From Telmatospirillum sp. (GTDB lineage Bacteria; Pseudomonadota; Alphaproteobacteria; CACIAM-22H2): 64,000 nucleotides of DNA. Below, piece by piece: positions 36,898 to 44,685 of the stretch. The stretch's first letter is position 1. Every line of letters begins with the position of its first letter. The stretch lies in assembly GCA_020248985.1 (NCBI GenBank), contig JADCGL010000011.1:62001-126000 (forward strand), read 5' to 3'. A program made the translations under genes and the position numbers. The notes under the pieces were generated by a model. That model did not search any database. It was not told where the DNA came from and worked only from the letters and a program-made list of their open reading frames with translations.

Positions 36898-37635
36898 ATG
36901 ACAGAGCCGCGCACGATCGTCCTTACCGGCGCCTCCAAGGGCATCGGCCACGCCACCGTAAAACGCTTTGCGGCGGAGGGCTGGCGGCTTATCACCTGTT
37001 CGCGCGAGGACGTGCCGGCCAATTGCCGGTTCGACCCCAATTGGACCGACCATATCCCGTGCGACCTGTCGAAGCCCGAGGAGCGCCGCCGCTTCGTCGG
37101 CGAAGTCGCCGAAATCCTCGGCGACGGGCCGCTGCACGCTCTCGTCAACAATGCCGGCATCAGCCCGAAGACGACCTACAAAGAACGCCTCGGCGTGCTG
37201 CATGGCGAGATCGCGGGCTGGTACGGCGTGTTCGAGCTGAATTTTTTTGCGCCCCTCGAATTGGCGCGCGGCTTTGCGGGCGCTTTGGCGCGCGCCAAGG
37301 GCGCCGTCGTCAACATCACCTCGATCGCGGGCCACCGCGCGCACCCGTTCGCGGGCTCGGCCTATTCGACCTCGAAGGCTGCCCTCTCCGGCCTCACGCG
37401 CGAGATGGCGGTCGAATTCGCGCAATTGGGCGTGCGCGTGAACGCGGTGGCCCCCGGCGAGATCGAAACCGAAATGATCTCGGCCGACTACGAGCCTTTG
37501 ATCACGCGCATTCCGATGCACCGCATGGGCACGTCGGCCGAGGTGGCGGGCGTCATATACCGGCTGTGCGACGCCGATTTCGGCTACGTGACGGGCAGCG
37601 AAATCTTCGTGACCGGCGGCCAGCAGCTGCTTTAG
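36898..37635 (+). CDS. Short-chain dehydrogenase/reductase
   Basis: The 245-residue protein is a classical SDR with the cofactor motif TGASKGIG at residues 10-17, NNAG at about 83, a catalytic serine in ITSIAGH, and the YSTSK motif (Y-x3-K). It oxidises or reduces an alcohol/ketone with NAD(P). The substrate is unknown. It ends TGGQQLL and overlaps the convergent GTPase gene by four bases. Confidence 0.88.
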   Translation: MTEPRTIVLTGASKGIGHATVKRFAAEGWRLITCSREDVPANCRFDPNWTDHIPCDLSKPEERRRFVGEVAEILGDGPLHALVNNAGISPKTTYKERLGVLHGEIAGWYGVFELNFFAPLELARGFAGALARAKGAVVNITSIAGHRAHPFAGSAYSTSKAALSGLTREMAVEFAQLGVRVNAVAPGEIETEMISADYEPLITRIPMHRMGTSAEVAGVIYRLCDADFGYVTGSEIFVTGGQQLL

Positions 37636-38591
37636 GCGGCACAGGCGGCAAAACCGCTCTTGAGCGCCGCCGCGTCGAGATCGCGGCCGATGAAGACCAG
37701 GCGCGAGACGCGGGCCTCGTTGCGTTGCCAGGCCTTGCCCCATGCGCTGTCCGCGAGCATGTGCACGCCTTGGAAGACAAAACGCTGGTCGGCGCCCGCG
37801 ACTGCGAGAATCCCCTTCGAGCGCAAGATTGCCTGCCCCTGCGCCGCAAGCACGCTGCCAATCCATTTCTGGAATCTTTCGACGTCCACGGGACCGTCCA
37901 CGACGGCGCTGACCGAACGGATCGCCGCATCGTGTTCGTGCGCGTGGTCGCTTTCGAGAAAATCCGGTTCGAGCGCCAGAATACGGCCGAGATCGAAGGC
38001 GCCGCGGTCGAGGATTTCGGACAGCGCGATCGCGCTTCGTTGCGTTCGGTGCAGCTTTGCGTAGGGGTTGACCGCGCGGATCCGCGCCTCGACTTGCGCC
38101 AGTTCGGCGGGGGAGACAAGGTCGATCTTGTTCAGCAGCACCACGTCGGCAAACCCGATCTGCTCCTCGGCCTCGTGGCTGTCGGCCAGCCGGTCGACCA
38201 GGAAACGCGCATCGGCAACCGCGACGATCGCGTCGAGCCGGGTCTTGGCGCGTACCTCGTCGTCGACGAAAAACGTCTGCGCGACCGGTGCCGGATCGGC
38301 AAGACCGGTCGTTTCGACGATGATGCCGTCGAGCTTGCCAGCGCGTTTCATGAGACCGCCGATGATGCGCACCAGATCGCCGCGCACCGTGCAGCAGATG
38401 CAACCGTTGTTCATCTCGAATATCTCTTCGTCGGCGCCGACCACGATTTCGTTGTCGATGCCGACTTCGCCGAATTCGTTGACGATGACGGCGTATTTCT
38501 TGCCGTGGTCTTCGCCGAGGATGCGGTTGAGCAGCGTAGTTTTGCCGGCTCCCAGATAGCCGGTCAGGACCGTGACGGGAATTTCTGACAT
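37632..38591 (-). CDS. CobW/COG0523-family GTPase, probable zinc metallochaperone
   Basis: The 319-residue GTPase has Walker A GYLGAGKTTL (residues 11-20), the metal-binding CxCC motif at C64-I-C66-C67, VVETTGLADPAP for switch II, and NKID for guanine recognition. A CobW C-terminal domain follows. Members deliver a metal to target enzymes: zinc for the ZigA/ZNG1/YeiR group, or cobalt in cobalamin synthesis. A short histidine-containing loop (DHAHEHD) lies near residue 220. A Zur-like palindrome in its promoter and the divergent DUF1826 gene argue for a zinc role, although the nearby cobalamin riboswitch leaves cobalt possible. Confidence 0.9.
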   Translation of the reverse strand: MSEIPVTVLTGYLGAGKTTLLNRILGEDHGKKYAVIVNEFGEVGIDNEIVVGADEEIFEMNNGCICCTVRGDLVRIIGGLMKRAGKLDGIIVETTGLADPAPVAQTFFVDDEVRAKTRLDAIVAVADARFLVDRLADSHEAEEQIGFADVVLLNKIDLVSPAELAQVEARIRAVNPYAKLHRTQRSAIALSEILDRGAFDLGRILALEPDFLESDHAHEHDAAIRSVSAVVDGPVDVERFQKWIGSVLAAQGQAILRSKGILAVAGADQRFVFQGVHMLADSAWGKAWQRNEARVSRLVFIGRDLDAAALKSGFAACAA

Positions 38592-38654
38592 TTCAGCGCT
38601 CCTTTTCGCGCGGACTGCGGCGCGCCAGCTTGACCATCGTTCGCGGCCACGATA

Positions 38655-38667
38655 GTTATAATATAAC
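38655..38667. promoter_or_regulatory. Zur-like operator in the divergent cobW/DUF1826 promoter
   Basis: The palindrome GTTATA-A-TATAAC, read on the other strand as GTTATATTATAAC, matches the AT-rich dyad known for Zur boxes in alphaproteobacteria. A further half-site (ATAACAT) follows at about 38667-38673. It sits 64 bases before the GTPase start and 41 before the DUF1826 start, so one site could repress both in zinc-replete cells. The whole stretch 38651-38679 is strikingly AT-rich for this genome. Zur itself is not encoded in the window. Confidence 0.7.
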
Positions 38668-38708
38668 ATAACATATTTCAAGGCGCCCCGGCGCCGAGGA
38701 GCGTTTCG

Positions 38709-39332
38709 ATGGATGGTGCGATGGGCGCGTGCGCGCCGAACATGCGGGCGATCGGCGGGATTTCGCACGGCGACGTTCGGGCCTGCGGTCCGATCGTCGA
38801 TCTGCGCTGTCCGGCGGAGGCTGTGCGTCGCGCCGTTGCGGCCCTTCGCTTCGGTCCCGATCCGTCGTTCGAATTTCCGGCGGATTGCGAAGATGTGCTG
38901 GCCGAACTTGTGCGTCGCGTCGCCGACGCAGCACTTGCGGCGGATATGGCCGACATTGCGCATGCCTATGCGGCGCGCACCGGTGCGGCACGGCAGAAAC
39001 TCCGCTTTGCGCGGATCGTCGGTCCGGGCTGCAAATTTTTTCATGTCGATATGGTCGAATTGCGGGCGATCACGACCTATGCCGGCGAGGGTACGGAATA
39101 TGTCGAGGCCAGCGACGTCGACAGGGCGGCGTTGGGCAGCGGCGACAACCGACGCATCGTGCCGGATCCAACGAAGGTGAAGCGCTTGCCGCTCTACGCG
39201 GTCGGCTATTTCCGCGGCGAAGCCGATCTTGCGCACGCGGGCACGGGCCACGTGCACCGCTCGCCGCCCGCGAGCCCGCACGCACCGCGTCTTTTGTTTG
39301 TCGTTGATCGCGCGCTTGACGCCGATGGCTGA
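38709..39332 (+). CDS. DUF1826 family protein, probably zinc-starvation regulated
   Basis: The 207-residue protein matches the style of DUF1826, a family of unknown function repeatedly found next to COG0523 GTPases under Zur control. Visible features are VGPGCKFFHVDMVELRAITTYAGEGTEYV in the middle and VKRLPLYAVGYFRGE towards the end. HAGTGHVHRSPP near the C-terminus gives a possible metal or active-site histidine group in a cupin-like pattern. A GAGGAG ribosome site ends eight bases before the ATG. No signal peptide is present. Assignment is from motif style and context, not from a search. Confidence 0.72.
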   Translation: MDGAMGACAPNMRAIGGISHGDVRACGPIVDLRCPAEAVRRAVAALRFGPDPSFEFPADCEDVLAELVRRVADAALAADMADIAHAYAARTGAARQKLRFARIVGPGCKFFHVDMVELRAITTYAGEGTEYVEASDVDRAALGSGDNRRIVPDPTKVKRLPLYAVGYFRGEADLAHAGTGHVHRSPPASPHAPRLLFVVDRALDADG

Positions 39333-39344
39333 CGTCTGCGAACG

Positions 39345-39520
39345 TCTGTTCGTCGGTTTCCCTCGGGAATTGATAGGGAATGCAGTGAGGCGCGGTGTGT
39401 GCGCCGATTCTGCGGCTGCCCCCGCAACTGTGAGCGGCGAGCGGCGCGTCATCTCGCCACTGGGCAACCGGGAAGGCGACGCGTCCGCCCAGACCCGCAA
39501 GCCAGGAGACCTGCCGGCGA
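39345..39520 (+). promoter_or_regulatory. Cobalamin (AdoCbl) riboswitch
   Basis: The leader carries the conserved blocks of the cobalamin riboswitch in order: TGATAGGGAATGCAGTG near 39371, GCGGCTGCCCCCGCAACTG from 39412, CCACTGG and GGGAAGGC near 39460-39477, and the B12 box AGCCAGGAGACCTGCC at 39500-39515. It should switch off the downstream DUF1636-transporter operon when cobalamin is plentiful. The remaining leader to 39644 is the expression platform. It holds a hairpin with arms GTTCGG/CCGGAC around AAAA at about 39576-39591 but no T-run, which suggests control of translation and not of termination. The rest of the 312-base gap holds no gene. Confidence 0.93.
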
Positions 39521-39644
39521 GTGTAGTCGCGTCGCGTACACGTCGGGCGGGGTGCCCCGATGGAGCCAAAAGGCCGTTCGGAAAACCGGACGCCAAGCGG
39601 CTTTGGTTCGCGGACGACGTGCTGCGTTGCCGCGAGGCCGACCG

Positions 39645-40112
39645 ATGAGCGACTGTTCCGACGGCATTGTGCCGAGGCGCGTTTTCGATGCGCCGATTCT
39701 CGACGTTTGCGTTCTGTGCCGGGCGCCCGACTGGAGCCAGTCGGAGGGGGCGCGGCCCGGCGCCATTCTGGCCGAGCAAGTCGATCGCGCCTTGGCCGCG
39801 CGCGCAATTCCAAGTGCGGTGCGCCGCAATGTGCGCTGCATCAGCCAATGCAAACGCCCCTGCGCGGTCGCCTTCAGCGCGCCCGGGCGCTTCACCTATC
39901 TGTTCGGCGATCTCGTCGCGTTGCGCGACGCAGAAGCCGTCGTCGATGCCTTCGCGCTTTACCTCGCCCGCCCCGACGGCCTCATGGAACGCTTCGAGCG
40001 TCCTGCGGCCTTGCGTGCGGGCATCCTTGCGCGCGTGCCGCCGCCCGGCTGGTGCGGACCCTTGGTCGATACGTCCGTGCACATCGAAGCCCAATTCGGA
40101 GACGCAAAATGA
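39645..40112 (+). CDS. DUF1636 predicted metal-binding protein
   Basis: The 155-residue protein has a thioredoxin-like ferredoxin style: C22-x2-C25 near the start (VCVLCRAPDW) and C65-x3-C69-x3-C73 (RCISQCKRPCAV) in the middle, consistent with the DUF1636 family of cysteine-rich metal-binding proteins. DUF1636 genes are often linked to cobalt or cobalamin genes. It is the first gene after the riboswitch and overlaps the binding-protein gene by four bases (ATGA), so a role in cobalt handling or in sensing by the transporter operon is likely but unproven. There is no signal peptide. Confidence 0.82.
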   Translation: MSDCSDGIVPRRVFDAPILDVCVLCRAPDWSQSEGARPGAILAEQVDRALAARAIPSAVRRNVRCISQCKRPCAVAFSAPGRFTYLFGDLVALRDAEAVVDAFALYLARPDGLMERFERPAALRAGILARVPPPGWCGPLVDTSVHIEAQFGDAK

Positions 40113-41578
40113 TCCGTCTGCTCTTTCTCGCTTTTCTCTCGTTCGTCGCCGTAGCGCCAGCGCTGGCGCAACGGCCCGTCGTCGTCGGTCAGACGTTCCT
40201 TGCCGAATCGCTCGATCCGGCGCAGGGCAATGCAGGCTGGGCCCTGCAATCGCACGGGTTGGCCGAAACTTTGTTCACCGTCGATCGCGAAGGCCGCATC
40301 GTGCCGAACCTCGCGCGCAACGTGGTGCGCGACGGCGAGGCTTGGCGCATCGAGCTGCGCGACGACGTTCGCTTCGGCGACGGCAGCCCGCTTGATGCGT
40401 CTGCGTTGCGCGACGCGTTTCTGCGCTCGACGGCCGAGAGTGCGCGCGCGCGCGCGCAGACCGGGCGGATCGAAGTCGAAATTCTGGGGCCGCATGCCGT
40501 GCGGCTGCGCACCGAGCAGAAGCTTGCGGCGGTCGAGAGCGTGCTCGCCGAGTTCCCGCTCGTCGTCTACCGCGTCGACGGCGAACGCTTTCACTTCACC
40601 GGACCCTATCGTGCGGTCGAGTATCGGCGCGGCGAGATGTTGCGTCTTGAGCCCAATCCGCACTACCGCGTGCCGGCCGTTCGGCCGCCGGTCGTCGTGC
40701 GGCGTGTGGCCGACACGCAGACCTTGGCGCTGGGCCTCGAAAGCGGCGAGATCGACATCGCGTTCAATCTTGCGGTCGAAACTTTGCCGCGGCTGGCGCG
40801 CCGCGCCGGCCTGACGGTGAAATCGACGCCGGTCGCCTACCAGTACATGGCGTTTCTCAACATGGCGCGCGCGCCCTTCGACGATGTGCGCGTGCGCCGC
40901 GCGGTCGATCTGGCCGTTGATCGCGCACAGCTGGTCGAGGCAGTGCGCGGCGGCGAGGTCGCGACCGGCATGTATCCGCGCTTTTTCCCGTTCGCGTCGC
41001 CCGACCGGCGCCCGACCGATCCTGCCGAGGCCGCACGCCTGCTCGACGCGGCAGGTTGGATCGCGGGTGCCAACGGCCAGCGCTTCAAAGACGGCCGCCC
41101 GCTCGAATTCGTGCTGACCGCCTATCCGCAGCGCCCCGATTTCGTCACGCTTGCCCCGGTCTTGCGCGCCCAGCTCGAGCGGATCGGCTTTCGCGTGCGC
41201 CTCGAAACGAGCGAAGCGATCACGCCGCAGTTGCAGGCCAAGCGCTTCGACATGGCCTTTTGGGCGATGCATGCGGCCCCCGGCGGCGACGGCGCCTACG
41301 TGCTCGAACAGTATCTGCGCAGCCAAGGGCCGACGAATTTCGCGGGCTTGGCCGATCCGCAGATCGACGCCGCCCTCGATCGGCTACGCACGACCGATGC
41401 GCCGGTCGCGCGCATCGCAGCCCTGCGCGCGACAGAAGCGCTTGTCTTCGCGCAAGCGCCCGTCGTCTATCTGATGACGCCGGTCTGGCATGTCGGGCTG
41501 TCGGCGCGTGTTGCCGATTATGTGCCCTATCCGTCGGACTACTACATCGTGCGCGCCGATCTGCGCGCGCGCGACTGA
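40109..41578 (+). CDS. ABC transporter substrate-binding protein, Opp/NikA family (SBP_bac_5)
   Basis: The 489-residue protein starts with a signal peptide (MIRLLFLAFLSFVAVAPALA, cleavage near residue 21). It has the peptide/nickel-binding fold: ESLDPAQGNAGWALQSHGLAETLF, LARNVVRDGEAWRIELRDDVRFGDG, and the hinge segment VRRAVDLAVDRAQLV. Family members bind oligopeptides, nickel complexes or heme. Placement behind a cobalamin riboswitch and a metal-binding protein suggests cobalt, probably as a chelate, or a corrinoid fragment. The next gene starts directly at its stop codon. Confidence 0.88.
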   Translation: MIRLLFLAFLSFVAVAPALAQRPVVVGQTFLAESLDPAQGNAGWALQSHGLAETLFTVDREGRIVPNLARNVVRDGEAWRIELRDDVRFGDGSPLDASALRDAFLRSTAESARARAQTGRIEVEILGPHAVRLRTEQKLAAVESVLAEFPLVVYRVDGERFHFTGPYRAVEYRRGEMLRLEPNPHYRVPAVRPPVVVRRVADTQTLALGLESGEIDIAFNLAVETLPRLARRAGLTVKSTPVAYQYMAFLNMARAPFDDVRVRRAVDLAVDRAQLVEAVRGGEVATGMYPRFFPFASPDRRPTDPAEAARLLDAAGWIAGANGQRFKDGRPLEFVLTAYPQRPDFVTLAPVLRAQLERIGFRVRLETSEAITPQLQAKRFDMAFWAMHAAPGGDGAYVLEQYLRSQGPTNFAGLADPQIDAALDRLRTTDAPVARIAALRATEALVFAQAPVVYLMTPVWHVGLSARVADYVPYPSDYYIVRADLRARD

Positions 41579-42502
41579 ATGGCGTTGGGCCGCGTTCTGG
41601 GCGAGTTTGGGCGCGTGGCCATCCATCTGCTGGCCGCATCGGCGCTCGCGTTCCTCATCGTGCGCGCGATGCCCGGCGACCCGGCCGTGCTGCTGCTGCT
41701 GGCGCAGGGCCAGGCGGCCGATCCTGCGACCGTGGCGGCCTTGCATGCGCAATGGGGCCTCGACCGCAGTCTGCCGGGACAGTACGCGGCGTGGCTCGGC
41801 GATTTTCTGGCGGGCGACTGGCGCACGAGTTTTCGCACCGGCCGCCCGATCTTCGAGGAATTCGCCGCACGGCTGCCGGTCACGCTGACGGTGGGGCTCG
41901 GCGCGTTTGCACTAGCACTTGGCGTCGCAGGACCGCTTGCCGAGGCGGCGGCGGCACGCCCGCATGGCTGGCAGGATCGCGTGCTCGATGCCGCCACGCT
42001 CGGCGCGCAGGCCGTACCCGGCTTCTGGCTCGGCTGCGTGCTGATCTGGGTGTTTGCGGTCGAGCTGCGCGCGATCGCGTTGTTCGAGGCGGGGCCGCAA
42101 CGCTACGCGCTGCCGATCGCCGTGGTGGCGCTTGCGGTGCTGGGGCCGCTGGCCCAGGTCTATCGCGCGGGCCTGCGCGAGGTGGGGCGCAGCGATTATG
42201 TGCGCGCCGCCCTCGCGCGCGGCGCTTCGCGCGGGCGCGTGATGGTGCAGCAAGGGCGCCGGTACGCGGCTCTCGGTCTGTTTTCGACGGCGGCCGCGGA
42301 GGCGGGCACGGTCGTCGGCGGGACGGCCGTGGTCGAAACCGTGTTCGGCCTGCCGGGCATCGGCCAGTTCGTCGTCGACAGCGTCGCAGTGCGCGACTTT
42401 TTCGTGCTCCAAGCTTTTTTCATGGTCGCGGTTGCGTGGATGCTGCTGGCCTCGCTTGCGGCGCGGCTCGCACGGCGCCTCGTGGCACCGGGCGCGTTTT
42501 GA
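41579..42502 (+). CDS. ABC transporter permease, NikB/DppB type
   Basis: The 307-residue inner-membrane protein has an N-terminal helix with the family signature FLIVRAMPGDPA, a periplasmic domain and five further helices. The ATPase-coupling loop is around YVRAALARGASRGRVMVQQGRRY. GLPGIGQFVVDSVAVRDF is the usual C-terminal block. It starts immediately after the binding-protein stop. It forms a heterodimer with the next permease. Confidence 0.92.
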   Translation: MALGRVLGEFGRVAIHLLAASALAFLIVRAMPGDPAVLLLLAQGQAADPATVAALHAQWGLDRSLPGQYAAWLGDFLAGDWRTSFRTGRPIFEEFAARLPVTLTVGLGAFALALGVAGPLAEAAAARPHGWQDRVLDAATLGAQAVPGFWLGCVLIWVFAVELRAIALFEAGPQRYALPIAVVALAVLGPLAQVYRAGLREVGRSDYVRAALARGASRGRVMVQQGRRYAALGLFSTAAAEAGTVVGGTAVVETVFGLPGIGQFVVDSVAVRDFFVLQAFFMVAVAWMLLASLAARLARRLVAPGAF

Positions 42503-42503
42503 G

Positions 42504-43319
42504 ATGTCGCACCATCGGCCATCGGGCGTCCGCCGATCGCCTGGCCTGCTGGCGAGCCTCGCAGCACTCGCCGTCGTTGCCGCGCTCTGGCAGCCTTACG
42601 CGCCGGATGCGGTCGATCTCGCGCTGCGCAATGTCGGCATGTCGTGGGCCCATCCGATGGGCACCGACCATTTGGGCCGCGACGTGCTGTCGCGCATTCT
42701 GGTCGGGTTTGCGCGCACGCTGGCGGCGGTTGCGGTCGTTTCCAGCGTGTGCGTGGGCGTCGGCGTGGCGGTGGGCATTCTGGCGTCGTCGCTGCAGGGA
42801 TTTGCGCGCGCCGCCCTGCTACGGACGGCCGAATTCGCGAGCGTGGTCCCGAGCCTCGTCGCGGCGATCGCGATCGTCGCCATGTTCGGCAACGGCACGC
42901 TCACTGTCGGGCTGGCCCTGGCGGCGGGGGCTTGGGGGCCGCATGCGCTGCTGGCCTTCGGCCTTGCCGAACGGGCGCGCGGCGAAACCTATGTGCGGGC
43001 TGCCGCCGCACTCGGGGCGGGCTCGGCGCATCTGCTGCGCCGCCACGTGCTGCCGGCCATTCTCGACACCCAGCTCGCCTATCTGGGCGCCAAGGTCGGG
43101 CGCATCGTGATCGCCTATTCCGCACTCGCGTTTCTGGGGCTGGGGGCGGATTCGAGCCGGCCGGACTGGGGTGCGATGCTGTTCGAATACCGGCTTATGA
43201 TGTTCGACCAGCCCACTTTGATGCTGTGGCCGGGGCTGGCGATCGTGCTGCTGTGCGTGGCACTGCGCGAAGGCATTGGCTGGGACAAGGATGCGCCGGC
43301 GCGCGTTTCGCCGCCCTAA
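42504..43319 (+). CDS. ABC transporter permease, NikC/DppC type
   Basis: The 271-residue inner-membrane protein carries HPMGTDHLGRDVLSRIL after its first helix, the hallmark of DppC/NikC permeases, and a coupling loop YVRAAAALGAGSAHLLRRHVLP. It ends the riboswitch operon. No gene for the one or two ATPase subunits normally following (NikDE/DppDF) is present; the next gene is a convergent regulator that overlaps its 3' end by four bases. Confidence 0.92.
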   Translation: MSHHRPSGVRRSPGLLASLAALAVVAALWQPYAPDAVDLALRNVGMSWAHPMGTDHLGRDVLSRILVGFARTLAAVAVVSSVCVGVGVAVGILASSLQGFARAALLRTAEFASVVPSLVAAIAIVAMFGNGTLTVGLALAAGAWGPHALLAFGLAERARGETYVRAAAALGAGSAHLLRRHVLPAILDTQLAYLGAKVGRIVIAYSALAFLGLGADSSRPDWGAMLFEYRLMMFDQPTLMLWPGLAIVLLCVALREGIGWDKDAPARVSPP

Positions 43320-43870
43320 AGCTTCGCCAGATGGTCGCGATACCAGTCGCGCCAGCGCATGGCTTCGCCGATGTCGTGCGCGAGCCATTCGCCGAGCAGC
43401 CCGTCGGCATTGCGCCCGGCGAGGTCCTGCAGCCGGGCGATTTCCATCTCGGCCATTTCGACGAGCTGTTCGACCTGGGCGGCGCGCTCGCCCTCGGGCA
43501 GCAGATCGAGGAAGCGCATCTTGAGCGCCACGACCATTTTGGAAAGGTCGGTCATGGGGGCCCGCACGGGGCTGCGCAGCATGTCGCAGAGTTTTTCGCG
43601 GCCCTTGTCGGTCAGCGCCAGCACCGTGTCGGCCGACAGGCTCTGGCCGGGGCCCGCCCGCTTGCCGCGCGGCTCGACGAGATCTTCGTAGCGCAGCTGC
43701 TCGATCGACAGGCCCAACACGTCGAGCGACGGGCCCATCAGCCGCGAGACGAAGCCGCGCACGGCCGCCGACAGCGCACCCAAGCTCATTTCCGCGCGCG
43801 CCAATTCGCCGAGTGCCGTGAGGCGCACGGCTTCCGTCGGAATCAGCGATTGGTCGCGAAAGCGCGGCAT
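43316..43870 (-). CDS. PadR-like transcriptional regulator
   Basis: The 184-residue protein combines an N-terminal winged helix (LTALGELARAEMSLGALSAAV, then LRYEDLVEPRG and ALTDKGREKLCDML) with a C-terminal helical dimerisation part (LPEGERAAQVEQLVEMAEMEIARLQ). This is the layout of PadR-type repressors, which answer to small aromatic or other ligands. It is separated by 11 bases from the creatininase gene upstream and is probably cotranscribed with it. The N-terminal match is not strong, so another winged-helix family is possible. Confidence 0.65.
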   Translation of the reverse strand: MPRFRDQSLIPTEAVRLTALGELARAEMSLGALSAAVRGFVSRLMGPSLDVLGLSIEQLRYEDLVEPRGKRAGPGQSLSADTVLALTDKGREKLCDMLRSPVRAPMTDLSKMVVALKMRFLDLLPEGERAAQVEQLVEMAEMEIARLQDLAGRNADGLLGEWLAHDIGEAMRWRDWYRDHLAKL

Positions 43871-43881
43871 GGGAAGACCCG

Positions 43882-44685
43882 TTACGCGTAGTCCTTGATG
43901 CGGTCAAGCGGGAAGCGTGCCACCTCGGCCAGCAGTGCCGCAAGCTTGCGCGCGGCATGCTCGACGACTTGGGCCCCGCGCGCGGCGTCCGCGTCGGTCG
44001 CGTCGCCCACGGCACCCGACGGATGCAGATCCTGGCTCTGCCAGGCAAGCGCACTCGAGCCGGTGTAGGTCAGCAGCTTGAAATGTTCGGCAAGATCGAT
44101 CTGGCCCGGCTTGAAGTTCGCGATCTTGTCGCCGCGCACCGTGTGTGGGGCGAGATGCATCATCATTGAGGTTTCGACCCCGCCCGCATGGATGCCGAAT
44201 TTCATTTCCGGCGTCGGCCACAGGCCTTCGGGCATGCCGTAGGCCCACCACGAGGCCGCGACGGCCGCCATTTTGAGCCGCACGCGCAGATCGCGCGCGA
44301 CGATGTCCATGATCTGCGGCTGGCCGCCATGGCTGTTGAACATCACGAATTTGCGGATGCCCGCCCGGTGCACGCATTCGCCGATCTCGGTCCAGATGCG
44401 GATCAGCGTTTCGGCGGAGAAAGACAGCGTGCCCGGGAAGGCCAGATGCTCGTTCGATTTGCCGATGTCGGTCTGCGGCAGGATCAGCACTTTGAGATCG
44501 GGCTCGAAATGCGCGGTCGCAGCTTCGACGATGCCGCGATTGAGCGTGGCGTCGACCGACACGGGCAGATGCGGCCCGTGCTGCTCGACGGCCGCGACCG
44601 GCAGCAGGGCCACCGTTTTCGCGGGATCGAGCCCGCGGAAATCCTCGGTCGTCATGTCGAGCCACCACCGCCATGCCTGCGCCAT
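43882..44685 (-). CDS. Creatininase-family amidohydrolase
   Basis: The 267-residue protein belongs to the creatininase/formamide-amidohydrolase superfamily, metal-dependent enzymes that open cyclic amides. Metal ligands are recognisable as E34 and H36 in VEQHGPHLP, D45 in SVDAT, H in FNSHGGQ and E in GGVETSMM. True creatininase is only one of several activities in the family. The gene diverges from a Rid protein, which suggests degradation of a nitrogen compound that releases reactive imines. The PadR-like gene follows. Confidence 0.88.
   Translation of the reverse strand: MAQAWRWWLDMTTEDFRGLDPAKTVALLPVAAVEQHGPHLPVSVDATLNRGIVEAATAHFEPDLKVLILPQTDIGKSNEHLAFPGTLSFSAETLIRIWTEIGECVHRAGIRKFVMFNSHGGQPQIMDIVARDLRVRLKMAAVAASWWAYGMPEGLWPTPEMKFGIHAGGVETSMMMHLAPHTVRGDKIANFKPGQIDLAEHFKLLTYTGSSALAWQSQDLHPSGAVGDATDADAARGAQVVEHAARKLAALLAEVARFPLDRIKDYA

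Follow-up and report, generated by a model that had tools for sequence, protein, structure and literature searches.

A Nik/Opp-type importer operon of Telmatospirillum with a cobalamin riboswitch and a predicted Zur operator nearby

In our comparison, the staphylopine metal importer Opp1/CntABCDF of S. aureus came out as the closest precedent for the importer described here. It is a Zur-controlled member of the Opp/NikA family that has been linked to Zn, Co, and Ni (PMC5666155). B12 riboswitches located before NikABCDE in C. tetani and D. hafniense have already been predicted for cobalt (PMC2667541). In addition, COG0523 subfamily 5 has been described together with WD40 proteins, znuABC, and Zur sites (PMC2770081).

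The stretch of DNA analyzed here (64,000 nucleotides from Telmatospirillum sp., contig JADCGL010000011.1, positions 62,001 to 126,000; referred to as the window) belongs to a genome of 4.3 Mb in 44 contigs (G000). Its importer locus comprises the following features.

37632 to 38591, minus strand: gene for a COG0523 (CobW-fold) GTPase with a GCICC motif, divergent neighbor (cobW, 196 bits; CobW_C, 89.5 bits)
38654 to 38668, no strand assigned: predicted Zur-type operator AGTTATAATATAACA, a palindrome between the divergent COG0523 GTPase and DUF1826 genes
38709 to 39332, plus strand: DUF1826 gene (PF08856, 109.3 bits), ending 4 nt before the aptamer
39316 to 39321, plus strand: TTGACG within the final codons of DUF1826, putative -35 element of a promoter belonging to the riboswitch itself
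39337 to 39532, plus strand: cobalamin riboswitch aptamer (RF00174, 116.1 bits, E 2e-28)
39645 to 40112, plus strand: DUF1636 gene (PF07845, 99.5 bits; cut-off, 31.6)
40109 to 41578, plus strand: gene for an SBP_bac_5 periplasmic solute-binding protein, NikA/Opp5A-like (PF00496, 202.9 bits)
41579 to 42502, plus strand: permease gene, NikB/Opp2B-like (PF00528, 77.5 bits; Opp2B, 214.5 bits; cut-off, 350)
42504 to 43319, plus strand: permease gene, NikC/Opp1C-like, last in the operon (PF00528, 73.1 bits; Opp1C nickel/cobalt, 174.7 bits; cut-off, 350)

An earlier note on this DNA had proposed a cobalamin riboswitch ahead of an operon of DUF1636, an SBP_bac_5 receptor, and two permeases, joined by ATGA and TGA-ATG junctions. 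This layout was fully borne out. The Rfam covariance model RF00174 matched over its entire length (1-189/189) and, at 116.1 bits, exceeded its gathering score of 31.5, and Pfam matches and coordinates revealed the four genes closely packed behind it. The DUF1636 and receptor genes are joined by ATGA (40109-40112), the receptor and first permease genes by TGA-ATG (41576-41581), and the two permease genes by TGA-g-ATG. At its downstream end, the last permease gene shares 4 nt with the end of a convergent gene for an AphA-like regulator, which is followed by a creatininase gene (43316-44676); creatinase genes were noted near COG0523 subfamily 5 in PMC2770081.

The full-length RF00174 match before DUF1636 supports B12 control, as far as can be predicted from sequence. 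G000 contains two RF00174 matches, the second of which, on contig 9, leads a cobW-cobN B12 operon. Between the aptamer and DUF1636, the leader folded no better than shuffled sequences (z -0.99). A generic promoter scan of 38500-40200 gave no match. Of 10 transporter riboswitches, however, 9 have TTGAC at -20 to -25 from the start of the aptamer model, as do most of the other riboswitches examined, and the riboswitch is likely to have its own promoter. This would give two likely expression routes in the window, a B12-controlled one from this promoter and read-through from the Zur-box promoter. Only 4 nt separate DUF1826 from the aptamer, so transcription from the Zur-box promoter would continue into the riboswitch. 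At two other loci (L117 in G013 and L121 in G015), another B12 riboswitch is located ahead of an apparent ribonucleotide reductase gene.

The Zur-type palindrome differs from the pattern TGTTATANTATAACA by one mismatch, with 0 such sites expected in 100 shuffles. At this tolerance, G000 contains two sites, one at the window locus and one between znuA and zur-znuCB; ZnuA was confirmed there, and a FUR-family protein was confirmed at the matching locus of a congener. A Zur matrix trained on sites outside the transporter locus (the Tagaea matrix) scored positions 38654-38668 at 30.4, compared to 25.7-36.4 for the training sites and always <12 for shuffled sequence, and a reversed control pattern was present in only 1 of 23 genomes. 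All seven congeners carrying the transporter have a Zur-type box near it, and the riboswitch is close by in the same seven. In the window, the box lies 0.7 kb upstream of the transporter operon. In four congeners (G011, G015, G016, and G017), a mismatch-free box occupies the gap between DUF1636 and the receptor gene; species of the G011 type thus have the riboswitch ahead of DUF1636 and the Zur box ahead of the receptor and permeases. G018 has kept the Zur box, DUF1826, and the riboswitch, with another gene set replacing the GTPase. The transporter locus hence carries a predicted operator to which Zur would bind. Zur boxes were also seen elsewhere. A second Opp-type operon with receptor, permeases, and its own ATPases lies behind one in G015 (L151, contig C8, near 4820) and G019 (L143, contig C6, near 4360), and a relative of its receptor adjoins ZigA and DUF1636 at L183. 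In G022 (L120, contig C12, 9207-10417), a B12 riboswitch and CbtA are followed on the same strand by a Zur box before a porin-like gene. At four loci (L140, L142, L145, and L148), a Zur box is found ahead of a gene for an outer membrane porin-like protein rich in early histidines.

In the PDB, the divergent COG0523 GTPase has E. coli YjiA as a relative, and its best NCBIfam model is of the YjiA type, below cut-off. Orthologues lie downstream of the permeases in G011, G015, G017, and G007, as the fifth gene of the operon; in the first three genomes, the order is receptor, two permeases, COG0523 GTPase with a His-rich insert, and WD40 protein. This context (WD40, Zur box) fits subfamily 5, of which the GTPase may be a member. 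DUF1826 is likewise drawn in Zur-regulated COG0523 clusters in PMC2770081.

For the receptor and both permeases, all top NCBIfam models were nickel or nickel/cobalt models, and even the best of these curated Nik/Opp models did not reach their cut-offs (Opp5A_nikA, 223.5/600 bits for the receptor; 214.5/350 and 174.7/350 bits for the permeases). Nickel receptors ranked first among the sequence relatives of the receptor in the PDB. Its AlphaFold2 model (pLDDT 88.8) best matched S. aureus NikA (Z 44, rmsd 2.3 over 453-454 residues), E. coli NikA was among the best matches, and peptide receptors have the same fold, at a Z of 38 or less. As judged from the model, the receptor has a NikA/Opp-class fold. 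Its reading as Nik-like and not dipeptide-like is supported by both fold and sequence, and clustering with dipeptide receptors, which would have spoken against the earlier note, was not observed. Neither a BtuF-type receptor nor a BtuC-type permease is present in the operon, whose receptor is SBP_bac_5 and whose permeases are BPD_transp_1. Import of a corrinoid, a heme-like chelate, or a peptide under B12 control, with the zinc signals being incidental, would agree with the riboswitch, with the congener G014, in which a riboswitch is located ahead of a BtuF-like receptor, and with the broad ligand range of Opp-family receptors and the fold that they share with peptide receptors. Nevertheless, we consider it highly improbable, since it leaves the Zur boxes, the ZnuA/Zur neighbors, and the COG0523 partner unexplained, and the receptor is closest to nickel receptors in both sequence and fold.

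ABC importers require ATPases. A scan for Walker A and ABC signature motifs detected none in the operon or beside the transporters of its relatives (some contigs end nearby), and a NikD/NikE pair was not found in the operon or adjoining it, so the ATPases would have to come from elsewhere. G000 holds about 50 Opp/Nik-type ATPase domains. A dedicated orphan ATPase pair was considered, but no clear one was found: among 35 oligo_HPY ATPase neighborhoods examined from G346 and G000, most include Nik/Opp permeases as well, and a few less clear-cut cases occur in G000 (L202, L219, and L220). Another receptor with two permeases and no ATPase in view occurs on contig C17 of G000 (L212, 13089-14860), and sharing of ATPases may thus be common in this genome.

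The DUF1636 protein had been noted for five conserved-looking cysteines. Among 38 homologues, C22, C25, C65, and C69 were invariant and C73 nearly so, and the protein shows the CxxC...CxxxC pattern in addition to exceeding the PF07845 cut-off. Its model (pLDDT 85.3) matched Aquifex [2Fe-2S] ferredoxins and PDB 9jn8, the thioredoxin-like ferredoxin ORF378 of R. capsulatus, to which both fold and profile correspond. The structural match agrees with the thioredoxin-like ferredoxin predicted in PMC4520260, and the model places DUF1636 among the thioredoxin-like [2Fe-2S] ferredoxins. A tree of 40 members had one branch (98/95) that united all 12 transporter-linked members, both zinc-linked members (one beside ZnuA, the other beside Zur and the GTPase), a member that adjoins ZigA and a second Opp receptor, and a few others. 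A cobalt branch contained all 13 members beside CbtA or CobW-CobN, plus the btu-type members. The window DUF1636 fell into the transporter/zinc branch, not the CobW/CobN branch. In G005, a riboswitch-led pair of DUF1636 and COG0523 was tried as an instance of the same module and turned out to be CbtA-DUF1636-CobW-CobN.

Close receptors were present in 8 of 385 genomes of an alphaproteobacterial survey, and a few more came from a scan of GTDB contigs. More distant copies are preceded by a riboswitch at L103, G346, and G144, in the last case directly before the receptor gene and without DUF1636; no Zur box was recognized in these three. Other copies have zinc surroundings without a riboswitch: in G385, a Zur box is shared with znuA and zur is nearby; at L100, Zur, three COG0523 genes, and DUF1826 are near the transporter; and in G386, FolE, HisI, and a COG0523 gene are. 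On distant Zur sites, the Tagaea matrix gave weak or absent signals in L100, G386, and G308. Although titled as a Bacteroidetes MAG, the L100 record has transporter, COG0523, and DUF1826 genes similar to those of Alphaproteobacteria, so the contig is possibly misplaced. Riboswitch-type and zinc-type copies were intermixed in the receptor tree, which gives branching within the group only and no direction of change. With few exceptions, both kinds conserve the candidate ligand residues H49, Y244-Q245-Y246, H388, and W460-H461, which points to a common cargo. In G022, a genome of the same family as G000, a NikA equivalog (593.6 bits; cut-off, 393) and two permeases lie behind a B12 riboswitch of 131.8 bits (L119, contig C47, 9685-13294), and no ATPase motif was found near the equivalog.

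Two further cobalt routes, HupE and CbtA, are present in G000, both without a riboswitch, and the Nik-type system is the only riboswitch-led importer of this genome. No MetE scored above cut-off in any of 23 genomes from the order, whereas control genomes matched, and MetH is present in G000, which indicates that B12 matters for methionine there. Together with this need, the position of the system as sole B12-controlled importer keeps cobalt as a likely cargo. Accordingly, an importer of cobalt alone for B12 synthesis could be envisaged, with the Zur box serving only the GTPase and DUF1826; the box before the receptor in sister species would then reflect cobalt use in zinc-starved cells. Recurrence of B12 riboswitches ahead of the transporter in four lineages, the lack of riboswitches at CbtA and HupE, the requirement for B12 and cobalt in cells with MetH and no MetE, and the riboswitch-led Nik systems, both those predicted for cobalt (PMC2667541) and the G022 equivalog, speak for such an importer. 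The position of Zur boxes immediately ahead of the receptor gene, the zinc-gene surroundings of relatives without a riboswitch, and the placement of the window DUF1636 outside the CobW/CobN branch speak against it, and on balance we regard it as unlikely, if the strongest of the competitors.

Conversely, the importer might carry zinc alone, with the riboswitch tuning it, or mainly DUF1636, for some other reason of B12 status. The Zur box, the zinc-type context of the COG0523 gene, DUF1826, and the ZnuA, Zur, FolE, and HisI neighbors would all suit this explanation, and in species of the G011 type the riboswitch before DUF1636 and the Zur box after it may be separate units. However, in G144 the riboswitch directly precedes the receptor with no DUF1636 in between. 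Moreover, the simplest link between B12 and zinc, by which low B12 would call for zinc-dependent MetE and hence more zinc, is ruled out for the order by the absence of MetE from the 23 genomes. Zinc as the only cargo thus appears quite improbable.

Metal import by the window system is well supported by family and context. Of the interpretation in the earlier note, B12 control and the Nik-like receptor are supported; cobalt (or a corrinoid) as the sole cargo has lost ground, in view of the Zur-type operators in seven of seven congeners that carry the transporter, the relatives with zinc genes and no riboswitch, and the DUF1636 branch. We prefer a Nik/Opp-type importer for divalent metal, most probably Co(II) and Zn(II), possibly in chelated form, that would respond to both B12 and zinc status and use borrowed ATPases. 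This is the reading that would account for every context, and we consider the chances for and against it to be about even. Several points speak against it: the Zur box of the window is 0.7 kb away and could serve the GTPase and DUF1826 only, the riboswitch-led copies at L103, G346, and G144 have no recognized Zur box, some distant Zur sites are weak or absent by the Tagaea matrix, the search for an ATPase partner gave no clear candidate, and the scores fall short of the curated nickel-family cut-offs. In this importer of cobalt and zinc, low B12 would cause synthesis via the riboswitch behind its own promoter, and zinc starvation would be tied in through Zur. In the window, the Zur-box promoter would drive the divergent GTPase and DUF1826 and could read through into the riboswitch and transporter, such a transcript still being subject to the riboswitch; in sister species, the box immediately precedes the receptor gene. 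In the periplasm, the receptor would capture the metal, possibly bound in a small chelate, and the two permeases would pass it inward, powered by ATPases of another Opp/Nik system. Inside the cell, the COG0523 GTPase and the DUF1636 ferredoxin may act on the metal or its targets.

More broadly, we tentatively propose, at slightly less than even confidence, an importer family linking B12 homeostasis to that of zinc, in which a single transporter is under both riboswitch and Zur, the order of controls varies between sister species, the ATPases are foreign, and DUF1636 comes from the zinc/transporter branch parallel to the CobW-linked cobalt branch. B12 riboswitches are routinely used to label adjoining transporters as cobalt or B12 importers. 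For a transporter that is also wired to a zinc repressor, such a label, if derived from the riboswitch alone, is unsafe. It can now be tested whether Co and Zn share an entry route, or whether the supplies of B12 and zinc are truly in cross-talk. The two branches of the DUF1636 tree suggest that these ferredoxins partner COG0523 metal-chaperone GTPases of the corresponding metal, which would offer a starting point for work on a family that is still poorly characterized.

Compared to Opp1/CntABCDF, the window importer is likewise of the Opp/NikA family with a Zur-type operator near, but its receptor scored only 58.4 bits for CntA (cut-off, 800), the operon lacks its own ATPases, and no opine synthesis genes were recognized in its flanks; the second control is a B12 riboswitch in the window and Fur in the staphylococcal system. 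With riboswitch-led NikABCDE, it shares a Nik-type receptor and permeases with B12 control, but the receptor is far below the NikA cut-off, NikD and NikE were not found, and Zur wiring and the DUF1636 and COG0523 partners are added. S. aureus NikA (Opp5A; PDB 3rqt and 4xkr) is the nearest solved fold to the window receptor, at 19 percent identity and with the latter below the Opp5A_nikA cut-off. R. capsulatus ORF378 (PDB 9jn8) and the window DUF1636 have family, fold, and conserved cysteines in common, but the latter groups with the transporter/zinc members and not with those linked to CobW/CobN. The GTPase resembles COG0523 subfamily 5, a different subfamily from true CobW, in adjoining a WD40 protein, Zur sites, and znu genes, while the accessible part of PMC2770081 reports no Nik-type transporter or B12 riboswitch for that subfamily. 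The combination of Zur and a B12 riboswitch on one transporter is not described in the accessible portion of the literature on Zur with B12 riboswitches. Its precedents exist separately, as riboswitch-led NikABCDE, Zur-controlled Opp/NikA importers, and COG0523 subfamily 5 with Zur sites.
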